A DNA stretch of 64,000 nucleotides from Acidovorax sp. NCPPB 3576. GTDB lineage: Bacteria; Pseudomonadota; Gammaproteobacteria; Burkholderiales; Burkholderiaceae_C. Where the stretch lies: NCBI RefSeq assembly GCF_028473605.1, contig NZ_CP097267.1, forward strand, positions 624,501 to 688,500. The letters run 5' to 3'. The notes beneath the pieces are model-generated. The model was not told the origin of the DNA and did not search any database. It saw only the letters and a list, made by a program, of their open reading frames with translations. The position numbers and the translations under genes are program-made. How positions within the stretch are numbered: position 1 is the first letter of the stretch; the number at the start of each line of letters is the position of its first letter. This document shows, one piece after another, positions 35,306 to 44,455 of this stretch.

Positions 35306-36361
35306 TTATGCCGGCGATGCGGCTTTCTCGATGTCGATGCGCGTGGCACCCGGGCACGGTGCCATGGCGATGCGCACCGGCAGGCACTGCGCGATGACCT
35401 GCGCATTCGTGCTGGCATGCGGGGTGATCGCCTCGGCCGTGTAGCTGGCATTCTTGCCGCTGCGCCAGACGGCGAGGGCCAGCGGCAGCATCCACTGGTC
35501 CGCCAGGTGCGGGCCGACGGCGCCCCGGCTGCGCTCGAAAGAACGCACCTCGCCGGCCAGCTGGCGCGCCACCTGTTCGGCCGGCATGCCGCGCTCGCCC
35601 AGCGCGCAGAACACCTCGGTCACCTCGGCATGCTCCAGCACCGCCAGCAGGGCGTTGCCCGGGCCTTCGTTCTGCCGCGCGGGCGGAATGCGCCAGGGGT
35701 CGTCGCCATCGCTCCAATCCAGTTGCTGGCGCAGCGCCGCCAGCTCGCGCACTGCGATGCCGCGGGCCAGCCCCGGCACCAGGGCCTCGGCCCAGGCGCT
35801 GCGGCGCGCGCCGCGGTCCAGCAGGTCGAACGGCGCCAGCGGGCCGGCCGCGGGCGTGATGGCCGCGTGCACCTCGCCGCCGCCCGCGGGATAGAAGCCC
35901 CGGCGCCGCAGCGTGAGGTCCAGTCCCACGCCCAGGCGCCGCACCATCGGCGCGAAGGCCCGCTGCACAAAGTCGAACGGGGGCGCCATGGGGTTGTGCG
36001 TGCCGCCCGACAGCTGCACCCGGCTGGGTGCGCCAGCCAGCATCAGCGCGGGCAGCACGGTCTGCAGCACCAGCAGGCAGCTACCTGCTCCGGCAATCGA
36101 GAAGGCGTAGTCGCCCGCCTGCACTGGGCCGGGCGTGAACTGCAGCGCCTGCGATCCCAGTTCCGCCCCTTGCGCCTGTCCGCCGCAGACCTGCACCGCC
36201 GCCTGCACGCAGGCCAGGTGCTGGCGCATCAGTCCCGGCTTGGGCCGGCCCGCGCGGATGCGGTCGATGCGCAGCGGCCGGCCGGTCACCATGGACAGCG
36301 CCAGGCCGGTGCGCAGGATCTGCCCGCCGCCTTCGCCGTGGGAGCCGTCGAGGGTCAGCAT
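35306..36361 (-). CDS. rtcA: RNA 3'-terminal phosphate cyclase
   Basis: 351 aa, full length. Converts RNA 3'-phosphate to 2',3'-cyclic phosphate via a covalent AMP-His enzyme. Seen: GEGGGQILRTGLALS near the N-terminus, RAGRPKPGLMRQHL, and the adenylylated-His motif GPHLADQWMLPLAL (about residue 310). Last gene of the sigma-54 operon starting at rsr; overlaps the nucleotidyltransferase stop by seven bases. Confidence 0.95.
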   Translation of the reverse strand: MLTLDGSHGEGGGQILRTGLALSMVTGRPLRIDRIRAGRPKPGLMRQHLACVQAAVQVCGGQAQGAELGSQALQFTPGPVQAGDYAFSIAGAGSCLLVLQTVLPALMLAGAPSRVQLSGGTHNPMAPPFDFVQRAFAPMVRRLGVGLDLTLRRRGFYPAGGGEVHAAITPAAGPLAPFDLLDRGARRSAWAEALVPGLARGIAVRELAALRQQLDWSDGDDPWRIPPARQNEGPGNALLAVLEHAEVTEVFCALGERGMPAEQVARQLAGEVRSFERSRGAVGPHLADQWMLPLALAVWRSGKNASYTAEAITPHASTNAQVIAQCLPVRIAMAPCPGATRIDIEKAASPA

Positions 36362-37218
36362 GGCGCGGGCCTTTCGGCGCCGCCATGGGCAGGATCGAAG
36401 CGCAGCACCGTGTCGTGCAGCAGGGCGTCCAGCCCGGCATGCCCGGCAATGGGCAGGGCCTGCACCGGCTGCGCCGCATTGGCGGCCAGTTCGGCCTCGA
36501 TGAATGCGTGCACGCCCGGCCAGCGCGGGCTGGTGGCGGACTCGTTCGCGCGCATCTTCACCGCCAGCAGGGCGTTGATCTCTTCGATGAGCGCTGCGTC
36601 GCGTTGCGCATCCAGCGTGTGCTGGGCCAGCTCGGCAAAGCGCATGGGCGGCACGCCGGGGCGCGTGCGGATCCATCGCGCCGCCAGCAGCGGGCGCAAC
36701 ACGTACAGGTATTTCTTGTAGCGCACGACGTCGGCCTGCAGGTGCTCGCGGAAGTTCTTCTTGGCCATGGAGGCGTAGTGGTGCCACGCCTTGGCATTGG
36801 AGAACACCCGTGCCGCCAGGGCGCGCACCTGGGCCATCGTGTCTGCCGCCTCGCGGTACACGATGGGCGAGCGCAGCCACTCCAGCAGCGTGGGGTTCGA
36901 TTCGCGCATCAGCCCGAGCGCCTTGCGCAGGTCCCAGCCGTTGATGTCCAGATCGCCGCTGATCGGCACCTCGATCACATCGCGCCCTGGCGATACCGTG
37001 AGGTACCAGGGCAGCCGGTTCACGTACAGAAAACGCACGTCGTAGTCGCTGTCGGGCGATGCGAAGCCCCAGCCCCGGCTGCCCGATTCGCAGGCGAACA
37101 GGATGGTGACGTGATGTTGCGCCTCGATATCGCGCAGCGCATCCATGATCTGCGCGCGCATGGCTGGCTCGATGGGGTGGGCGGAACGAAGCAGTTCCTG
37201 GGGTTCTATCTTTTGCAT
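36355..37218 (-). CDS. Pol-beta superfamily nucleotidyltransferase (COG3541-like)
   Basis: 287 aa. The nucleotidyltransferase core is visible as FACESGSRGWGFASPDSDYDVRFLY (about 42-66, written here as ESGSRGWGF then SDYDVR), giving the GS...DxD metal site. A helical C-terminal domain follows. It may add or remove a nucleotide on RNA, or on a protein. Placement between rtcB and rtcA, overlapping rtcA, argues for a role in RNA-end processing. Confidence 0.82.
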   Translation of the reverse strand: MQKIEPQELLRSAHPIEPAMRAQIMDALRDIEAQHHVTILFACESGSRGWGFASPDSDYDVRFLYVNRLPWYLTVSPGRDVIEVPISGDLDINGWDLRKALGLMRESNPTLLEWLRSPIVYREAADTMAQVRALAARVFSNAKAWHHYASMAKKNFREHLQADVVRYKKYLYVLRPLLAARWIRTRPGVPPMRFAELAQHTLDAQRDAALIEEINALLAVKMRANESATSPRWPGVHAFIEAELAANAAQPVQALPIAGHAGLDALLHDTVLRFDPAHGGAERPAPC

Positions 37219-37320: not shown

Positions 37321-38538
37321 CTATCCCTTCACGCACACCACCTGCTTGAGCGTGTACACCACCTCCACCAGGTCTTCCTGCGCGGCCATCACGGCGTCGA
37401 TGTCCTTGTAGGCCATCGGGATCTCGTCGATCACATCGGCGTCCTTGCGGCATTCCACCCCTTCGGTGGCGGCGATCTGGTCGGCAATGGTGTAGAGCTT
37501 CTTGGCCTTGGTGCGGCTCATCTTGCGGCCCGCGCCGTGGCTGCAGCTCATGAAGCTCTCGGGGTTGCCCTTGCCGCGCACGATGAAGCTCTTGGCGCCC
37601 ATGCTGCCGGGAATGATGCCCAGCTCGCCCGCCTTGGCGCTCACCGCGCCCTTGCGGGTGATGAGCACGTCTTCGCCGAAATGCGTCTCGCGGCTCACGT
37701 AGTTGTGGTGGCAGTTCACCGCCTCGACATGGGCCTCGAAGGGCTTGGCGATCACCTGGCGGGCGGCCGCGATCACGCGCTGCATCATCACCTCGCGGTT
37801 GGCCCGCGCGAACTTCTGCGCCCAGCCCACGGCGCGCACGTAGTCGCCGAAATACCGGGCGCCTTCCTCGAAATACGCCAGGTCCTGGTCGGGCAGGTTG
37901 CGCTGGTGCAGCTCGGCATCCTTCTTGGCCAGCTCGATGAAGTGCGTGCCGATGGCGTTGCCCACCCCGCGCGAGCCCGAATGCAGCATGAACCACACGC
38001 CACCGTGTTCGTCCAGGCACACCTCGATGAAGTGGTTGCCGGTGCCCAGCGTTCCCAGGTGCTTGTGGTGGTTGGTGCTGGCAAAGCGCGGGTAGTCCTC
38101 GCAGATCGCGTCGAACTCGCCCTTCAGGGCGGCCCAGGCCGCATCGCTCTCATCGGGCGGCGTTTCCCACGAGCCCTTGTCGCGGCCCATGCGGCGCGGG
38201 TTGCTGCCGTGCGGCACGGCCTTTTCGATCGCAGAGCGCAGCGGGCCCAGGTTGTCGGGCAGGTCGTTGGCGTGCAGCGTGGTCTTGCACGCCATCATTC
38301 CGCAGCCGATGTCCACGCCCACGGCGGCCGGGATGATGGCCTTGAAGGTGGGGATCACCGATCCCACCGTGGCGCCGATGCCGTAGTGCACATCGGGCAT
38401 GGCGGCCACGTGCTTGAACACGATGGGCAGGCGGGCCGCGTTTTCCAGTTGCTTCTGGGCTTCGTCTTCCACGGGGACGCCCTGGGTCCACATCTTGATG
38501 GGGACGCCGTTTTCCACATTGCGTTGCAGGTAGGTCAT
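37321..38538 (-). CDS. rtcB: RNA-splicing ligase RtcB
   Basis: 405 aa, GTP/Mn-dependent RNA ligase joining 2',3'-cyclic phosphate or 3'-phosphate to 5'-OH ends. Motifs: AAVGVDIGCGMMA (Cys metal ligand), LGTGNHFIEV, HSGSRGVGN, CHHNYVSRETHFGED, GSMGAKSFIVRGKGN and the guanylylated His in SCSHGAGRKMSR (about 320). It shares the operon with rsr, the Y RNAs and rtcA. Confidence 0.96.
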   Translation of the reverse strand: MTYLQRNVENGVPIKMWTQGVPVEDEAQKQLENAARLPIVFKHVAAMPDVHYGIGATVGSVIPTFKAIIPAAVGVDIGCGMMACKTTLHANDLPDNLGPLRSAIEKAVPHGSNPRRMGRDKGSWETPPDESDAAWAALKGEFDAICEDYPRFASTNHHKHLGTLGTGNHFIEVCLDEHGGVWFMLHSGSRGVGNAIGTHFIELAKKDAELHQRNLPDQDLAYFEEGARYFGDYVRAVGWAQKFARANREVMMQRVIAAARQVIAKPFEAHVEAVNCHHNYVSRETHFGEDVLITRKGAVSAKAGELGIIPGSMGAKSFIVRGKGNPESFMSCSHGAGRKMSRTKAKKLYTIADQIAATEGVECRKDADVIDEIPMAYKDIDAVMAAQEDLVEVVYTLKQVVCVKG

Positions 38539-38591: not shown

Positions 38592-39401
38592 CTATTCGCT
38601 GATCACGTCGAATACCGCTTCGAGAATCTGTCGCGGGCCCATGTGCGATCCGCAGCCACATGGCTGGGGGCCTTCCAGAGCCTGCGCATCGATGGCCAGG
38701 ATCTTCCGGGAAAAGCGCTGGCGGTGGCCTGCATCGAGCAGCCAGTCCTTCATCGTGGTCTGGAACTCCGGCCGGTCTTCGGAAAATGCGTTCTGAATCC
38801 GCTGCTTGCCCCAGAAATCCCAGTAGCTGCCGTCGGCGTAGTGCAGCACGGCACTCGCACGATCGTCTTGCAGCCAGTGGGCGAGCAGCGGTGCGATGGC
38901 GATGCCTCCGATGTGGAACATCAGCAGGATGTCGAATGCGTTGGCGCCATGGAACGGGCTGGGCTCCTGCGCACTGCGGCCCAGCCCTTCGCGAAAGAAC
39001 GCCAGTGCGAACGCATCCACGGCAGCGCGCTCGGGGCGAGACAGCGCATCGGCAGGGCAGCGGCCCAGACGGTCCAGGTACAGCTCGGTCGAGTGGTGCA
39101 GCTCTTCGCCCTGGGCCAGCAGTTCCAGCATGCGCGGAAGAAGGTACAGCATCTCTTCCGCCGGCTGCTCGCTGCTCTTGGCAGAGCTGTTGTATTCGTA
39201 GAAATGGCGGGCCGTTATTTCGCGCAGGGGCAGGCGCCGCATCTCGCGTTCCATGGCCTCGTCCATGCAGCAGCCCGTGCACACGTCCAGCATCTGCGTT
39301 GGCGGGCCATGGCGCTGGAAGGCGGCATAGGCGGCATCCACTGCCTCGCGCAGGGCGGACGGCAGCGTGGCGGCCTGCGCTGCGGGGGCATTCGGTTTCA
39401 T
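38592..39401 (-). CDS. Unknown protein of the RNA-repair operon, 269 aa
   Basis: Not recognised. Two cysteine motifs stand out: CTGCCM near residue 41 and CGCGSH near 250, both able to bind a metal. Between them the chain looks helical, with ELLAQGEELHHSTEL and FDILLMFHIGGIAIAPLLAHWL. No signal peptide. Located between the Y-RNA array and rtcB, 53 bp upstream of rtcB, in the same transcription direction, so probably induced together by RtcR. Confidence 0.75.
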   Translation of the reverse strand: MKPNAPAAQAATLPSALREAVDAAYAAFQRHGPPTQMLDVCTGCCMDEAMEREMRRLPLREITARHFYEYNSSAKSSEQPAEEMLYLLPRMLELLAQGEELHHSTELYLDRLGRCPADALSRPERAAVDAFALAFFREGLGRSAQEPSPFHGANAFDILLMFHIGGIAIAPLLAHWLQDDRASAVLHYADGSYWDFWGKQRIQNAFSEDRPEFQTTMKDWLLDAGHRQRFSRKILAIDAQALEGPQPCGCGSHMGPRQILEAVFDVISE

Positions 39402-39461
39402 CGTGTTCTTTCCTGTTCGGTTCATCGTGGGGCGCTGCCCTGCAGGGCGCATTCAAAAAAT

Positions 39462-39588
39462 GAGGTGACAAGGGGTGGCGGGTTTGTGCAATTGAGCTAC
39501 CTGCCGAAGCAGGCCGGGGGTCGAACCCGGAACCTTCAGGACCCGAGGGCCCCGACGCTCTACCTGTAAACCCGCCTGCATTCACCTC
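39462..39588 (-). ncRNA. Y-RNA-like RNA 4 (circularly permuted tRNA mimic)
   Basis: Outer helix GAGGTGA/TCACCTC (39588-39582 with 39468-39462), conserved internal loop ATGCA opposite CCTTG, inner helix GGCGGGTTT/AAACCCGCC. Inside, in order: D-arm 3' half GGTAGAGC (39564-39557), hairpin CGGGGCC-CTCG-GGTCCTG where an anticodon arm would be, T-arm CCGGG-TTCGACC-CCCGG (39530-39514), acceptor-like CCTGC-TTCG-GCAGG, then D-arm 5' half TAGCTCAATTG. A tRNA opened in the D-loop with its acceptor ends joined by a UUCG loop gives this order. Six Ts follow at 39460-39455. Matches the known YrlA class of bacterial Y RNAs. Confidence 0.85.
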
Positions 39589-39602
39589 GCAAACAAAAAA
39601 AA

Positions 39603-39721
39603 GCAGCGACAAGGATCGACGAAACGTCGTGCTCTACCACTGAGCTACGGCCTTTCGACCGGCGGGATTCGAACCCGCGACCACGAGAGTCATAGTCTGT
39701 AGTTCCGTCCGCATTCGCTGC
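39603..39721 (-). ncRNA. Y-RNA-like RNA 3 (tRNA-mimicking YrlA type)
   Basis: Outer helix GCAGCGA/TCGCTGC (39721-39715 with 39609-39603), 5' loop GCGAATGCGG and 3' loop TCCTTGTCGC as in its neighbours. Module: perfect T-arm GCGGG-TTCGAAT-CCCGC (39678-39662), acceptor-like GGTC-GAAA-GGCC (39660-39649), complete D-arm GCTC-AGTGGTA-GAGC (39645-39631), then CGACG-TTT-CGTCG instead of an anticodon arm. T-arm before D-arm is the permuted order known for YrlA RNAs. Eight Ts follow directly (39602-39595). Confidence 0.87.
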
Positions 39722-39729
39722 AAAAAACA

Positions 39730-39824
39730 GTGCGACAAAGGTGGCAAGACATGGACCACGCCGCGGTGCGGCGCTGGGATTCGAACCCCGGTCCCTCCAG
39801 ATGTAGTCCTGCCTGCATTCGCAC
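39730..39824 (-). ncRNA. Y-RNA-like RNA 2 (partial tRNA mimic)
   Basis: Outer helix GTGCGA/TCGCAC (39824-39819 with 39735-39730); loops GAATGCAGG and CCTTTGTCGC conserved; inner helix GGCAGG/CTTGCC. The module keeps a T-arm with TTCGAAT loop (39785-39779, one mismatch in the stem) enclosed by ACAT/ATGT and GGACC/GGTCC pairings, plus a CGCCGC-ACC-GCGGCG hairpin. No D-arm is visible. A T-run (39727-39722) follows and abuts RNA 3. Confidence 0.78.
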
Positions 39825-39846
39825 ATTCATTCATCGATGCCATTCC

Positions 39847-39905
39847 CGTTCGGCGACAAACCGGCGGTGCGACCGGGATGTAGTCACACCTGCATTCGCC
39901 GAACG
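39847..39905 (-). ncRNA. Y-RNA-like RNA 1 (minimal hairpin form)
   Basis: Perfect ten-pair outer helix CGTTCGGCGA/TCGCCGAACG (39905-39896 with 39856-39847), the same loop ATGCA opposite TTTG, then an eight-pair inner helix GGTGTGAC/GTCGCACC closed by TACATCCCG. There is no tRNA-like module. It is the unit nearest rsr, 47 bp beyond its stop. No T-run follows, so it may be released by processing. Confidence 0.75.
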
Positions 39906-39952
39906 ACAACGGTCATTCATCATTCATTCCCGGGGCGGGTGCCGTGAATTGG

Positions 39953-41506
39953 TCAGATCGGGGTTTCCTCGATCACGCCGACCCAGTGCTCCGCGCCCAT
40001 ACCCCCCGCGGCGTACACCGCCAGCAGCTTGAACACTTCGTCGCTGAAGCCGCCGATGTTCAGCACATCGGGCTGCTCCTGCACCTGCGTCGTTGCGCAG
40101 GGCTGGATGTCGATGCACACCAGCCGGGCCGCCGGGTTGCGCTGCTTGAAAGCAGCCCACTCCTGCATCGTCGCGGTCCCCCGGCCCCGTGCACGGTCGG
40201 CCCACGATTCGTTGTCGGACACCAGCACCACCAGATCGGCCTGCGCCTTCTCGCGGTTCAGCAAAGCCAGCGGTGCGCTGCACGACGTTCCGCCGCCTCC
40301 CACCGCGGCCAGCTTGGCCGCATTGGTCATGACCGAATCGCGGGGATTCAGTGGCAGCGGTACTACCTTCGTTTCGAAGGGCAGCACACGCGCATCCGCA
40401 TTGCGGCGCAGCACGGCGGCGGCCACCAGGGCGGCCACGTCGATGCACCGCACCGCGGAAGTCGCCGAGCCCCGGTGGCCCGTCACGGGCGAACCCATGG
40501 AGCCCGACACGTCGGGGCACACCACCACGCGGCCTTCGAACTGCGGCACATTGGCCAGCGCGAGCTCCATCGCATCCTGCAGCGCTTCCTTCACCACAAG
40601 CGGCACGTCGGCGCCGCAGGCGGTGTACGCGGCCATCAACTGGTACGGCAGCACACGGGCCTTGGCCACGGCCTGCGGGTCACGCAGCTTGGCGGCCACG
40701 GCATCTGCCAGGCCTGGCAGCGCGAACACGCCATGCCGGGCAAAGGTGTTCAGGTTCTGGCGCACCATCTGCCACGAGCCGCGCTGCGCGATCGCGGCCC
40801 AGGCGGCTGCGTCCAGCTCCAGCGCGGTCAGCATCTGGAACGGCACGTCGGGCACGGGCTGCGTGCGGTCTTGCTTGAAGCGCTCGAAGGCCTGCGTCAG
40901 TGGGGGCAATGCCTCCTGCGCATAAGGGCGGCCGATCAGCCAGGCGAACCACGCGGCGCGCCAGGCTTCGGCGGGCTTCGGGTGCACCATCTTCACCACG
41001 TCGGCCAGCGATGGCGTGTTGCCCACGGCGGCGTTCAGCAGTTGCGCCTCGGTGGCGTCGAGCAGCCATTGCTGCACCAGTTTTTTCGGACGCGTGCCGA
41101 GCGATTTGCGGCCCACTGCGCCGGAGCGCAGCATCTGCACGAAATTGCGCAGCATCTTGCCGTTGTCGATCACGCGGCCGAACACCTGGGCCAGCACGGA
41201 AACGTCGCGCACCGCCAGCGTGGCCGCCAGCAGGGCCGGCATGTCTTTCATGGAGCCGGCACGGCGCGCATACAGGGCCGTCTTCGCCACGAACACCGGA
41301 TCGACTTCACGGGCCAGTGCCTGAACGGCGTCGAGCTGGTCTTGCGCCTGGGCGTAGAAGGTGCTGTGGAGGCAGCCGGTGGCAGCCAGCTGCGCCAGTT
41401 GGTGCTTGGGCGACAGGGCGTAAGCCGCGCCACCGGCCAGGTTGCGCACAGTGGCAGCGGGGAGCAGGGTGCCGCGCAGCGTCTGGAAGAGCGGGTTGTT
41501 GGCCAT
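39953..41506 (-). CDS. rsr: Ro60-like TROVE/vWA RNA-binding protein (Rsr)
   Basis: 517 aa. An N-terminal TROVE HEAT-repeat ring (about 1-320) is followed by a von Willebrand A domain with MIDAS motif DVSGSMG (332-338) and GGGGTSCSAPL. Ro proteins bind misfolded RNA ends in the ring and Y RNAs on its outside, and direct exonucleases such as PNPase. The ATG at 41506 has GGAGC upstream and lies about 50 bases after the expected sigma-54 start point; a start at 41560 would lie upstream of that. The four Y-RNA-like units follow it. Confidence 0.95.
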   Translation of the reverse strand: MANNPLFQTLRGTLLPAATVRNLAGGAAYALSPKHQLAQLAATGCLHSTFYAQAQDQLDAVQALAREVDPVFVAKTALYARRAGSMKDMPALLAATLAVRDVSVLAQVFGRVIDNGKMLRNFVQMLRSGAVGRKSLGTRPKKLVQQWLLDATEAQLLNAAVGNTPSLADVVKMVHPKPAEAWRAAWFAWLIGRPYAQEALPPLTQAFERFKQDRTQPVPDVPFQMLTALELDAAAWAAIAQRGSWQMVRQNLNTFARHGVFALPGLADAVAAKLRDPQAVAKARVLPYQLMAAYTACGADVPLVVKEALQDAMELALANVPQFEGRVVVCPDVSGSMGSPVTGHRGSATSAVRCIDVAALVAAAVLRRNADARVLPFETKVVPLPLNPRDSVMTNAAKLAAVGGGGTSCSAPLALLNREKAQADLVVLVSDNESWADRARGRGTATMQEWAAFKQRNPAARLVCIDIQPCATTQVQEQPDVLNIGGFSDEVFKLLAVYAAGGMGAEHWVGVIEETPI

Positions 41507-41566
41507 GTGTTTTTGCTCCGTTCGGTTGTTCTTGGTTCGGTTGTATTTGTGACTTGCCATACCTAC

Positions 41567-41584
41567 TGCAACGGATGTGCCAAC
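41567..41584 (-). promoter_or_regulatory. Sigma-54 promoter of the rsr-Y RNA-rtcBA operon
   Basis: On the minus strand TTGGCAC-ATCCG-TTGCA matches the -24/-12 consensus (TGGCAC, five bases, TTGC). Transcription would start near 41555, about 50 bases before the rsr ATG. The adjacent divergent gene encodes RtcR, the sigma-54 activator known to control rtc operons. Activator sites probably lie in 41585-41720; no clear palindrome was identified. Confidence 0.9.
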
Positions 41585-41720: not shown

Positions 41721-43343
41721 ATGATGAAGAAGCAAAACGTGGTGATCGGCTTTCTGGGTACCCAGCTCGACTCGGGCAAGGGGGCGGGGCGCTGGGAGAA
41801 ATGGCGCCCGACGCTTTCGCTGGTGCAGCACGACGATGTGGTCGTCGCGCGGATGGAGTTGTTCTATACCCCGCCCCACCGTGAACTGGCCGAGCGGGTG
41901 CGCACCGACATAAACGCGGCTTCACCCGAAACCACGGTGGCGCTGGTGCCCCTCGACATTGCCGACCCCTGGGACTTCGGCGAGGTCTATGCCAAGCTCT
42001 TCGACTGGACGCAGGGCTACGCTTTCGACACCGAGCGCGAGGAGTACTGGACGCACATCACCACCGGCACGCACGTGGCGCAGATCTGCCTGTTCCTTCT
42101 GGTGGAGTCGCGGCGCATTCCCGGCGTGCTCGCCCAGACGTCGCCCCCGAAGCGCCAGCAGGCGGGAGATCCCGGCAGCTACGCGCTGATCGACCTGGAC
42201 CTGTCACGCTACGACGTGATCGCCCAGCGCTTTGGCGCCGAGCAGCGCGATGCGGTGGACTTTCTCAAGAGCGGCATCGCCACGCGCAATACCCGTTTCA
42301 ATGCGCTGATCGAAGAGGTGGAGCGGGTGGCGGTGCGATCGCGCGCACCCATCCTCTTCACCGGTCCGACTGGCGCGGGCAAGTCGCATCTGGCGCGGCG
42401 CATGTTTGAACTGAAGAAAGCCCGCCACCAGGTGGAGGGCGAATTCGTGGATGTGAACTGCGCCACGCTGCAGGGCGACGGCGCGGCGTCCACGCTGTTC
42501 GGGCACAAGAAGGGCGCCTTCACCGGCGCGGCAGCGGACCGGGCGGGCTTGCTGCGCACGGCCCACAAGGGCGTGCTGTTTCTCGACGAGATCGGCGAAC
42601 TGGGCGTGGACGAGCAGGCCATGCTGCTCAAGGCCGTGGAGGAAAAGCGCTTCTATCCCATGGGCAGCGACCGCGAGGTGGCCAGCGATTTCGAGCTGAT
42701 CGCCGGCACCAACCGCGACCTGCGGGCCGAGGTGGCGGCCGGGCGTTTTCGCGAAGACCTGTACGCGCGCATCAACCTGTGGAGCTACCAGTTGCCGGGC
42801 CTGGCCCAGCGGCCCGAGGACATCGAGCCCAATGTGGACCACCTGCTGGCGCGATGCGGCGTGGAGCTGGGCCGCACGGTGCGTCTGTCGGCCGAGGCGC
42901 GGGCGGTGTACCTGCGCTATGCGCAGTCTCCCGAGGCGCTGTGGAGCGGCAACTTCCGCGACCTGTCGGCCAGCGCCACCCGCCTGGCCACGTTGGCCGA
43001 GGGCGGGCGCATCGGTCTGCCCCTGGTGGAGGCGGAAATCGCGCGCCTGCAGTGGCTGTGGCAACCTCTCGGTCCGGCAGACCGCGGCCAGGATGGCGAT
43101 GCGGTGGACCTGGCCGCACTGCTGGGCGAGCCGCAGGTGCAGTCCATGGACCTTTTCGACCAGTTGCAGCTAGCGGCCGTGCTGCGTGTGTGCCGCGGGG
43201 CGCGCACGCTGTCGGATGCAGGGCGGCAGCTGTTCCAGGCGTCGCGCTCGCAGCGCGCGGTCGTCAACGATGCGGACCGCCTGCGCAAATACCTGGCGCG
43301 ATTCGGTCTGGACTGGGAGCAGGCCCGCAGCGGTGGACGATAA
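41721..43343 (+). CDS. rtcR: RtcR, sigma-54-dependent activator of the RNA-repair operon
   Basis: 540 aa (or 539 from the second ATG). N-terminal CARF-type regulatory domain (about 1-180: VVIGFLGTQLD, ITTGTHVAQICLFLLVESR), AAA+ domain with Walker A GPTGAGKS (about 213), sigma-54 contact loop GAFTGA (265-270), Walker B VLFLDEIGEL, and a C-terminal Fis-like helix (ASVNDADRLRKYLARFGL-type end). In E. coli RtcR is activated by RNA ends with 2',3'-cyclic phosphate or tRNA fragments sensed by CARF. Divergent from rsr. Confidence 0.95.
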   Translation: MMKKQNVVIGFLGTQLDSGKGAGRWEKWRPTLSLVQHDDVVVARMELFYTPPHRELAERVRTDINAASPETTVALVPLDIADPWDFGEVYAKLFDWTQGYAFDTEREEYWTHITTGTHVAQICLFLLVESRRIPGVLAQTSPPKRQQAGDPGSYALIDLDLSRYDVIAQRFGAEQRDAVDFLKSGIATRNTRFNALIEEVERVAVRSRAPILFTGPTGAGKSHLARRMFELKKARHQVEGEFVDVNCATLQGDGAASTLFGHKKGAFTGAAADRAGLLRTAHKGVLFLDEIGELGVDEQAMLLKAVEEKRFYPMGSDREVASDFELIAGTNRDLRAEVAAGRFREDLYARINLWSYQLPGLAQRPEDIEPNVDHLLARCGVELGRTVRLSAEARAVYLRYAQSPEALWSGNFRDLSASATRLATLAEGGRIGLPLVEAEIARLQWLWQPLGPADRGQDGDAVDLAALLGEPQVQSMDLFDQLQLAAVLRVCRGARTLSDAGRQLFQASRSQRAVVNDADRLRKYLARFGLDWEQARSGGR

Positions 43344-43351
43344 TCGCCCCC

Positions 43352-43791
43352 GTGAAGCGCGCCAGACCGCCGCTGGTGCAATCTGGGAAACCAGGCACTG
43401 GAGGAACGTCCGGACTGCACAGGACAGCGTAGCAGCTAACGGCTGCCCACCGTGAGGTGAGGATCAGAGCAACAGAGACGAGTCTTAGCAGGCACAAGCC
43501 ACCGAAGGTGTTCTATCGGTCACCCGCGCAAGCGGGTACGGCTGGCGCAAGCCAGACGGTTTGCGGCGAAAGCCGCAAAGACCATAGCCGCCCGAAGCGG
43601 GCAGCGCCTGCTTCGGGTGAAACGGGCAATCTCTACGCGCAGCAATACCAAGTAGGCCAGCGTTGATGTGGTTCCGCAGAGCTGGCGGGTAGGTAGCATC
43701 GAGCCGTGGTGGCGACACCCGGCCCAGAGTAATGGCGGTCACGCCGCGGGCAACCGCGGTGCACAGAATCCGGCTTATCGGCGCGCTTCAC
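43352..43791 (+). ncRNA. rnpB: RNase P RNA (class A)
   Basis: Catalytic RNA that trims tRNA 5' leaders. The P1 helix is formed by GTGAAGCGCGCC (43352-43363) and GGCGCGCTTCAC (43780-43791). Core motifs seen: GAGGAACGTCCGGACTGCAC with ACAGGACAGC (CR-I region), CAGAGCAACAGAGA-type CR-II/III, GGTAGGTAGCATCGAG, and near the 3' end AGAGTAATGGCGGTCACG with ACAGAATCCGGCTTATCGG (CR-V). Length of about 440 nt is usual. It starts nine bases after the rtcR stop. Confidence 0.95.
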
Positions 43792-44455
43792 ACTTTGAAT
43801 TCCATTCCGATCCCTTGGCCCGGCAGGCGCTGAGGCGAATCGGCGCCATCCCCGCGTGGGTCTGGCCGCACCTTGAACGCCTTGGCATGAATGCCCTTTT
43901 TCATAGGGGCCCGCTCTGCCGCAGGACCGGGCGCTGCTTTGGGTTCGGCCACGCGCGTTTCTCTTCCCGCGATTTCTCTCTTTGAAATCGGCGCCTTCGC
44001 TTTGGCTCCCTTTGCAGGCGCCACAGGCCTTCCGTGTTTTTCTTCCCCTCGTCGCTCAGCGCAGGCACTGAGTTCGCGCCCGCCGCGCCGTTTCTCTGCC
44101 TTCAGTTCATCCGGCATGCGCCTCTGGCCGGCTTTCAGAACGCTTCAGAAGTCTTAAGGGAGATCGGCCGGGTTTTCATGCCGTGCTGCATTCAATCCCA
44201 CCAGAATATTCACAGGCGCTGGTAGCCACTCATGCCGTGGATTAACAGTGCCATGCATTTTCAATTCGAAGGAAATGATGGCGCGTGTTGTCTTCCATGT
44301 GCGTGACGGTCCCTCATTGGCGAATGCCTGCCGATGTGGCCCTGCGGCTCTGCAGCGCTGTTGCGAGGGCATGGCCAGTGGCGTACGGCATACCGAGGGG
44401 CAACCGATTTTCAAATGGCCTTCGAATCGATTTTCTTTCCTCAAAGGATATAGAC
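43792..44455. other. Intergenic region without a supported gene
   Basis: No convincing coding sequence in 664 bp. Frames on either strand (for example 43788-44117 minus, Lys/Ala/Pro-rich) lack a recognisable domain and a good ribosome site. The last 300 bp become AT-richer and presumably hold the promoter of the gene cluster starting at 44456; no clear -35/-10 pair was found. Confidence 0.5.

Follow-up and report, generated by a model that had tools for sequence, protein, structure and literature searches.

A four-unit Y RNA array in a tRNA-repair operon of Acidovorax, with one unit resembling a circularly permuted tRNA that keeps an anticodon arm

Why should a tRNA-repair operon carry four different Y-RNA-like units, and what could the tRNA-like modules within them be for? 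The question is raised by a 64,000-nucleotide stretch of the genome of Acidovorax sp. NCPPB 3576 (contig NZ_CP097267.1), referred to here as the window, in which a Y RNA array lies on the minus strand between rsr and the rtcB-rlaP-rtcA genes. The protein genes around the array are the following:

41721..43343, plus strand: rtcR, the divergent activator (NF038308, 809 bits; cut-off 650)
39953..41560, minus strand: rsr, the Ro60 orthologue (Pfam vWA_Ro60, 1.1e-17; TROVE, 2.2e-5)
38592..39401, minus strand: uncharacterised protein of 269 aa, counted from the ATG at 39401; a second in-frame ATG is at 39452
37321..38538, minus strand: rtcB (Pfam PF01139, 2.4e-127)
36355..37218, minus strand: RlaP-type nucleotidyltransferase (Pfam PF10127, 1.3e-91)
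35306..36361, minus strand: rtcA (Pfam PF01137, 2.2e-76; NF003246 above cut-off)

The array starts 46 nt after the rsr stop and is followed by the genes for the uncharacterised protein, RtcB, the RlaP-type nucleotidyltransferase and RtcA. Divergence of rtcR from the rtcBA operon is the arrangement of an RtcR-controlled RNA-repair operon. The rsr product also matches the NF041674 Rsr model at 4.1e-22 with 78 bits, below the model cut-off of 900. By its gene content, the setting is a tRNA-repair operon of the RtcR type, presumably with a sigma-54 promoter, and the claim of an earlier note on this DNA that Y-RNA-like units lie beside rsr in such an operon is supported. The sequence TTGGCAC-ATCCG-TTGCA before rsr (41567..41583, minus strand) is presumably a sigma-54-type promoter-like element, judged by eye against the consensus; a sigma-70 scan gave no match. 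Since the rsr ATG at 41560 lies six bases past this element and probably ahead of the transcript start, the methionine of MANNPLFQ at 41506 is the likelier start (the segment concerned being 41506-41560, minus strand). The 269-aa protein between the array and rtcB has no match in Pfam or NCBIfam at E 0.001; of the 17 genomes of the genus, counting the host's own, seven contain a match to it, and three of these seven have none to rsr. An RNase P RNA (RF00010, 192 bits) lies directly after rtcR at 43354-43793 on the plus strand, so that a tRNA-processing RNA adjoins the tRNA-repair operon. RtcR is activated by binding 5′ tRNA fragments with a 2′,3′-cyclic phosphate, and tRNA cleavage in Salmonella falls in anticodon loops (PMC7790460).

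Four consecutive minus-strand units spanning 39455-39905 had been claimed in the earlier note. A script that requires GAATGC, a 3′ box of the TTGTC type and an adjoining helix finds the same four, and the claimed span is right to a few bases (39462-39906). All of the following features are on the minus strand:

39846..39906, minus strand: unit A (U1), a mini Y RNA with outer helix and 8-bp inner hairpin, without a tRNA module
39879..39897, minus strand: shared box GAATGC-N8-YTACA of unit A
39730..39824, minus strand: unit B (U2), Y stem, T arm and acceptor-like hairpin, without a D arm, followed by a T run
39802..39820, minus strand: shared box of unit B
39603..39721, minus strand: unit C (U3), YrlA (RF02553) by score; predicted permuted tRNA with the Y stem in its anticodon stem
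39698..39716, minus strand: shared box of unit C
39462..39588, minus strand: unit D (U4), predicted permuted tRNA opened in the D loop, most similar to tRNA-Trp
39565..39583, minus strand: shared box of unit D

The units measure 61 (A), 95 (B), 119 (C) and 127 nt (D). In every unit the outer helix directly adjoins the two boxes, GAATGC at its left and TTGTC at its right. These helices are 11 bp long in unit A, with one G-U end pair, 6 bp in unit B and 7 bp in units C and D. The 3′ box is TTGTCGC in three units and TTGTCAC in the last; both forms had been described. For the shared 5′ element, GAATGC had been recognised correctly, but the YTACA common to the units eight bases further on had been overlooked. 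Each unit has one copy of the composite box GAATGC-N8-YTACA, all in the same orientation, and the single-contig genome of 5.41 Mb contains no others; the reversed pattern, used as a control, occurs once. A closed terminal stem with conserved internal-loop boxes, the mark of Rsr-bound Y RNAs, is present in the array, and the GAATGC...YTACA and TTGTC boxes are presumed to be the Rsr handle. Folding of units A, B, C and D gives z values of -4.1, -3.0, -3.4 and -3.4 against 200 dinucleotide shuffles, of which 0, 1, 1 and 0, respectively, fold as well as the unit.

The search with a YrlA covariance model that the earlier note had proposed places unit C at 72.8 bits, above the RF02553 cut-off of 69 bits. 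Units B and D score 41.3 and 33.6, and unit A is unlisted up to E 10. On this score, unit C is a YrlA, departing from the consensus by its anticodon arm, and units A, B and D are not. Graded tRNA mimicry had been proposed as well, and the gradation stands: unit A has none, unit B has a T arm and an acceptor-like hairpin, unit C would be a complete permuted tRNA and unit D folds as a cloverleaf. The D, T and acceptor arms are present in permuted order in units C and D, and unit B has no D arm. The anticodon arm of unit C rests on comparison with relatives, and that of the unit D cloverleaf is capped by a tetraloop. What had been missed is the anticodon-type loop of class C and the opening of unit D in its D loop.

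To place the array among relatives, the best 80 of 111 confirmed rsr relatives were taken together with seven of the host genus (17 genomes, own included). Since the relatives were retrieved with peptides of this rsr, near relatives are favoured. L001-L003 are copies of the window, and L011 and L020 are the same loci as L006 and L007; with these left out, 85 loci remain. A strict version of the finder demands the TACA box. Its counts over the 85 loci are lower bounds; at L033, L067, L071 and L090 the contig ends less than 1600 bases after rsr. It finds 165 units in the 85 loci and none in a 1.49 Mb background made up of the flanks and the whole opposite strand of the same loci. The number of units per locus is 0 in 8 loci, 1 in 19, 2 in 32, 3 in 22 and 4 in 4; at least one unit is thus present in 77 of the 85, at least two in 58 and at least three in 26. 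Classes were assigned by pattern, 11 ‘A_long’ units being left unclassified. The order A-B-C-D is found only in the window among the 85 loci and, likewise by pattern, in L172, a locus found later by an RNA model. Ten units lie between rsr and rtcB in one relative from the same taxonomic order (L214:4168-6015, minus strand), and seven follow rsr in one more distant relative. At least one of the ten L214 units, judged by eye, resembles a Leu-type (class II) tRNA whose opening lies in the anticodon loop. Multi-unit arrays are common in this sample and four units are not exceptional. The expectation of the earlier note that one or two Y RNAs are usual does not, for this group, survive the 26 loci with at least three units and the further relative with ten. 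That several Y RNAs can occur per locus was probably known already. Work by Chen in 2014 is said to have described at least one Y RNA per species with a tRNA-like domain.

T runs of 6-8 follow units B, C and D in the window (after 39730, 39603 and 39462, minus strand), and none follows unit A. Within the Acidovorax/Variovorax group, a run of at least five T comes after 14 of 14 B units, 19 of 22 C units and 3 of 4 D units, and after none of five A units. These runs are what speaks for the view that the units mainly shape expression, the outer stems and T runs serving as processing or termination signals that set the Rsr:RtcB ratio. We regard this as very improbable, since a T run follows only 23 of 42 B units and 27 of 81 C units over all 85 loci, a consensus-based scan finds no terminator, although it allows short loops only, and the tRNA modules would be left unexplained.

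The earlier note had named the lack of compensatory changes in the outer helices of related genomes as a result that would tell against its reading; such changes are found in all four classes. The class A alignment covers the outer and inner helices of 19 sequences including that of the window. In the 18 that are distinct, 99.0% of cells are paired and eight pairs are changed on both sides, a level that 0 of 500 shuffles reach, while the number of pair types shows no excess over shuffles (289 of 500). In class B (36 sequences), the outer helices and hairpins are supported by covariation, but the module-closing helix as drawn is not, with 54.5% of its cells paired. In class D (nine sequences), 97.8% of cells are paired and 15 pairs are changed on both sides.

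Unit D of the window has a full cloverleaf as its minimum free energy (MFE) fold, with the D stem formed from a 5′ GAGC and a 3′ GCTC, the anticodon arm capped by CTCG and the acceptor by TTCG. When the unit is rotated, 52 of 66 positions agree with tRNA-Trp, with a score of 68, and none of 40 shuffles exceeds 54; without rotation, the score of 55 lies below the shuffle maximum of 58. Since the class D arm ends in tetraloops (by eye, for example, CTCG, CTTG and GAAA), the arm appears to be kept without an anticodon. Five class D units (522 nt after rsr in L030, 371 in L041, 504 in L046, 341 in L050 and 532 in L078) have by eye a Leu-type class II look, with a long variable arm, and are opened in the D loop.

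Class C has a different construction. On comparison of sequences, it is a whole circularly permuted tRNA in which the Y stem interrupts the anticodon stem between nucleotides 29 and 30 and a loop connects the two acceptor ends. Since such an RNA has neither a 5′ end nor a CCA, it should not be chargeable. The anticodon-type hairpin of the window unit is:

39686..39698, minus strand: AGA-CTATGAC-TCT, with the anticodon ATG at 39691-39693

Covariation in class C was measured in a set, A1, of 51 sequences, consisting of the window unit and 50 of 55 listed units with 17-21 nt before the T arm and a length of at most 136 nt. They were therefore picked for tRNA-like spacing; the listed units excluded are those of L024, L080, L081, L082 and L088, and L007 and L008, which were read on the other strand, did not enter the list. 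Across 33 pairs, 99.2% of cells are paired and 16 pairs are changed on both sides; 0 of 500 shuffles are as high, and controls with a slid register reach at most 46.0%. The consensus that RNAalifold gives, unprompted, for these 51 sequences contains a 3-bp anticodon hairpin, whose innermost pair is CG in 25, AU in 23, GC in one and unpaired in two. The three lower pairs of the anticodon stem are absent from that consensus. As drawn by hand they are paired in 94-100% of sequences, but they vary in two cells only, so that covariation hardly tests them.

The distance from TAC to the T arm is 20 nt in 64 of 105 class C units, which we take to correspond to tRNA nucleotides 29 to 48. Six of the 105 have fewer than 13 nt before the T arm and were excluded from the loop test, leaving 99. 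A stem of at least 3 bp with a 7-nt loop is present in 73 of the 99 testable units, against a mean of 5.3 and a maximum of 12 in 200 runs of shuffles; none of the other loop sizes from 3 to 11 occurs in more than 10 units. The 73 loops, 60 of which come from loci found through the Rsr protein and 13 from loci found with the RNA model, which could favour loops, have U33 in 70, a purine at 37 in 66 and a pyrimidine at 32 in 70. They carry 21 different anticodons, the commonest being CTT (18). The triplets show a bias not required of real anticodons: 67 of the 73 have a pyrimidine at position 35, and 41 have U at position 36.

Rotation to tRNA order is possible by rule for all but six of the 73 units. 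ARAGORN calls all 67 rotated modules as tRNAs with the same anticodon, but none of the 67 in native order and none of 335 shuffled modules. Because the modules were chosen for their loop and for being rotatable, this result speaks to their fit to a tRNA and not to frequency among units. In native order, no tRNA with a free acceptor end is called by ARAGORN in the window or in the 67 modules. Of the tRNAs of the host genome, tRNA-Lys(ttt) is the nearest to rotated unit C, agreeing at 55 of 65 positions with a score of 82 against a maximum of 62 in 40 shuffles; without rotation, unit C is within chance (51 versus 56).

A class C model at E 0.001 has matches in 171 of 299 genomes of the family; a full-length match of at least 58 bits is counted in 30 of the 299, among the matches listed. 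At E 1e-10, 22 of 399 genomes of the order and 10 of 398 of the phylum match, two of the 22 having partial matches only (model positions 17-109). The weak matches, many of them at 17-109, resemble neighbouring ordinary tRNA genes by score and model range, and this might suggest that the units themselves are decaying tRNA genes or artefacts of tandem tRNAs. We give that view next to no credence, as the window is free of tRNAs according to ARAGORN, the order of the arms is permuted, the helices covary and the box is present in every unit. The permuted order and the covariation already contradict an ordinary or decayed tRNA identity.

Several results run against the class C reading. Folded alone, unit C of the window favours a structure in which the anticodon is taken up into an 8-bp hairpin; pair 30:40 has a probability of 0.001 and the anticodon hairpin is absent from the MFE fold. 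The anticodon pairs are present in the MFE folds of only 15 of the 51 class C sequences, so that the class C loop rests on comparison. In the 16 sequences listed, the best fold is more stable than the tRNA-like structure as drawn by about 10 to 23 kcal/mol; folding programs handle tRNA cores poorly. No 7-nt loop is found in 26 of the 99 testable units, including most of those in L082-L089 (other phyla), and some of the loops counted in L080-L083 and L088 are not tRNA-loop-like. The loop and its two flanking pairs are identical to those of a tRNA of the host genome in only 19 of 73 cases. Adenine occupies position 34 in 19 of the 73 anticodons, and 18 of these 19 are not ACG, the only anticodon with A34 among the tRNAs of the host genome. 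Real anticodons are what such a decoy, if aimed at an anticodon-specific nuclease, would be expected to copy, and these non-genomic anticodons count against that role.

Although class C is tightly held as an RNA, its anticodon is not. The rate tests used set A1, with one unit per locus for the fourfold-site pairs and for the rsr tree. In 63 overlapping pairs with at least 95% identity elsewhere, positions 34, 35 and 36 differ in 57%, 37% and 38%, U33 differs in 5%, and the other well-occupied columns differ in 3.4% on average. In 60 pairs of loci whose rsr fourfold sites differ by 10-20%, the anticodon differs at 54% of positions and the rest at 4.9%. Mapped onto an rsr tree of 49 taxa, the triplet has 28 changes (with 19, 15 and 14 at positions 34, 35 and 36) and U33 has one, compared with averages of 9.9 for rsr fourfold sites (95th percentile 18) and 2.8 for the other RNA columns (maximum 15); 4-25% of the fourfold sites change as often as the anticodon positions or more. 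On average the triplet is replaced no more slowly than synonymous sites, and its changes come in blocks. In 17 disjoint close pairs, the anticodon differs in 10, always at two or three of its three positions, where 1.5 such multi-position differences are expected at the fourfold rate (P = 8e-8). Between L039 and L047 there is no difference in the well-occupied columns outside the loop, yet six of the seven loop letters differ. Counted as events, anticodon change shows no excess over the synonymous rate in these pairs (10 of 17 against 7.2 expected) and is not clearly faster than synonymous sites. Block change is compatible with short segments having been exchanged with tRNA genes or other Y RNAs, and equally with selection that favours a new identity. 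Because event counts are not above the synonymous rate and 4-25% of fourfold sites are as variable, relaxed constraint combined with block exchange would fit too.

These rates bear on a possible but less probable explanation, in which the array is a set of adaptors whose modules tether Rsr to PNPase and to various tRNA-binding proteins, steering RNA decay, and the anticodon is a neutral leftover of the donor tRNA that can vary freely. An anticodon that is no faster than synonymous sites by events would be in keeping with it, as would the A34 anticodons, most of them foreign to the tRNAs of the host genome. Rsr and a Y RNA tether PNPase in Deinococcus (PMC8394870), and PNPase binding has been described for YrlA, as has its modification by DusA and TruB (PMC8394870, PMC7790460). 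A neutral loop is not, however, expected to hold seven nucleotides, U33 and a purine at 37 while positions 34-36 turn over, nor is a neutral anticodon expected to change in blocks. Moreover, the same arm is capped by tetraloops in class D, so that a 7-nt loop is not needed merely for holding such a fold.

The reading we prefer, with confidence somewhat short of even, is that a four-Y-RNA array stands in a tRNA-repair operon and that class C, when bound by Rsr, acts as a decoy or sensor with an inert anticodon. If the units are expressed and bound by Rsr, tRNA damage would switch on the operon, and the Rsr-bound class C RNA would present enzymes that handle tRNA with an inert anticodon arm, serving mainly as a decoy for anticodon-loop nucleases or as a cleavable sensor of them, while RtcB, RlaP and RtcA would mend the real tRNAs. 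The partners of units B and D may be enzymes that recognise the T arm and acceptor, or the tRNA core, and unit A may fill Rsr without an effector module. A suggestion close to the decoy has been made by the authors of the 2020 Salmonella study, who propose that the tRNA domain of YrlA may competitively inhibit the anticodon nuclease (PMC7790460); that study states that the roles of Ro60 and Y RNAs in the operon lay outside its scope. An improbable variant would make class C a sensor or buffer for the repair enzymes themselves, its anticodon loop being cut while the Y stem holds the halves, so that RtcB reseals it or the 5′ piece with its cyclic phosphate feeds RtcR. The gene cluster shared with rtcB, rlaP and rtcA and the nature of the RtcR ligand, a 5′ tRNA fragment with a cyclic phosphate (PMC7790460), favour it, but the 5′ piece from class C does not correspond to the 5′ half of a tRNA. 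In addition, Salmonella YrlA was not cut and its fragments went undetected under damage (PMC7790460), which counts against this variant and against the preferred reading alike, a finding that is qualified as counter-evidence by the Rfam YrlA consensus having no anticodon arm.

Each known RNA to which the units can be compared shares only part of their features. YrlA (RF02553; rsr-yrlBA-rtcBA in Salmonella) likewise lies beside rsr and rtcBA, has a terminal stem with a tRNA-like module and is a look-alike of tRNA that is circularly permuted relative to it (PMC11472068). It is, however, described as a mimic of the D, T and acceptor arms, a substrate of DusA and TruB and a tether of PNPase (PMC8394870), and unit C needs a 13-nt insertion where the consensus has no anticodon arm. 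With a 7-nt-loop hairpin in most of its testable units, class C does not have the consensus form of YrlA. In the literature searched, which did not take in the primary Y RNA papers, and as far as its available text goes, no mention of an anticodon arm in a Y RNA was found. Compared with tRNA (RF00005), rotated class C is called as a tRNA with an anticodon in all selected modules, but class C is permuted, has no free ends or CCA, lies inside a Y stem and goes uncalled in its native order. The tRNA-like domain of tmRNA is also a partial tRNA mimic, and 18 nt of unit C match the T arm of tmRNA, but ARAGORN does not call unit C as a tmRNA and it has no free acceptor end. YrlB is not known to have a tRNA module, and unit A, with a stem and a hairpin only, is likened to it, as to other Y RNAs that lack such a module, by description and not by sequence. 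YrlB is the other RNA of the Salmonella operon (PMC9879122).

A wider proposal, which we hold to be doubtful, is that the Y RNAs of Burkholderiales are fast-evolving decoys: permuted tRNAs without ends, bound by Ro60, whose anticodon is swapped as a cassette between species, under selection for diverting or reporting anticodon-loop nucleases. Their arrays would have as many as ten members, opened variously in the anticodon stem, the D loop and possibly the anticodon loop. The class C reading yields direct tests, namely whether class C is cleaved or not and whether swapping its loop alters resistance to a nuclease. An RNA in which the anticodon loop is kept, the ends are discarded and the anticodon differs from one sister species to the next suggests that the anticodon arm is a functional surface, and classes C and D together suggest that a tRNA may be opened at more than one point while still serving as a module.
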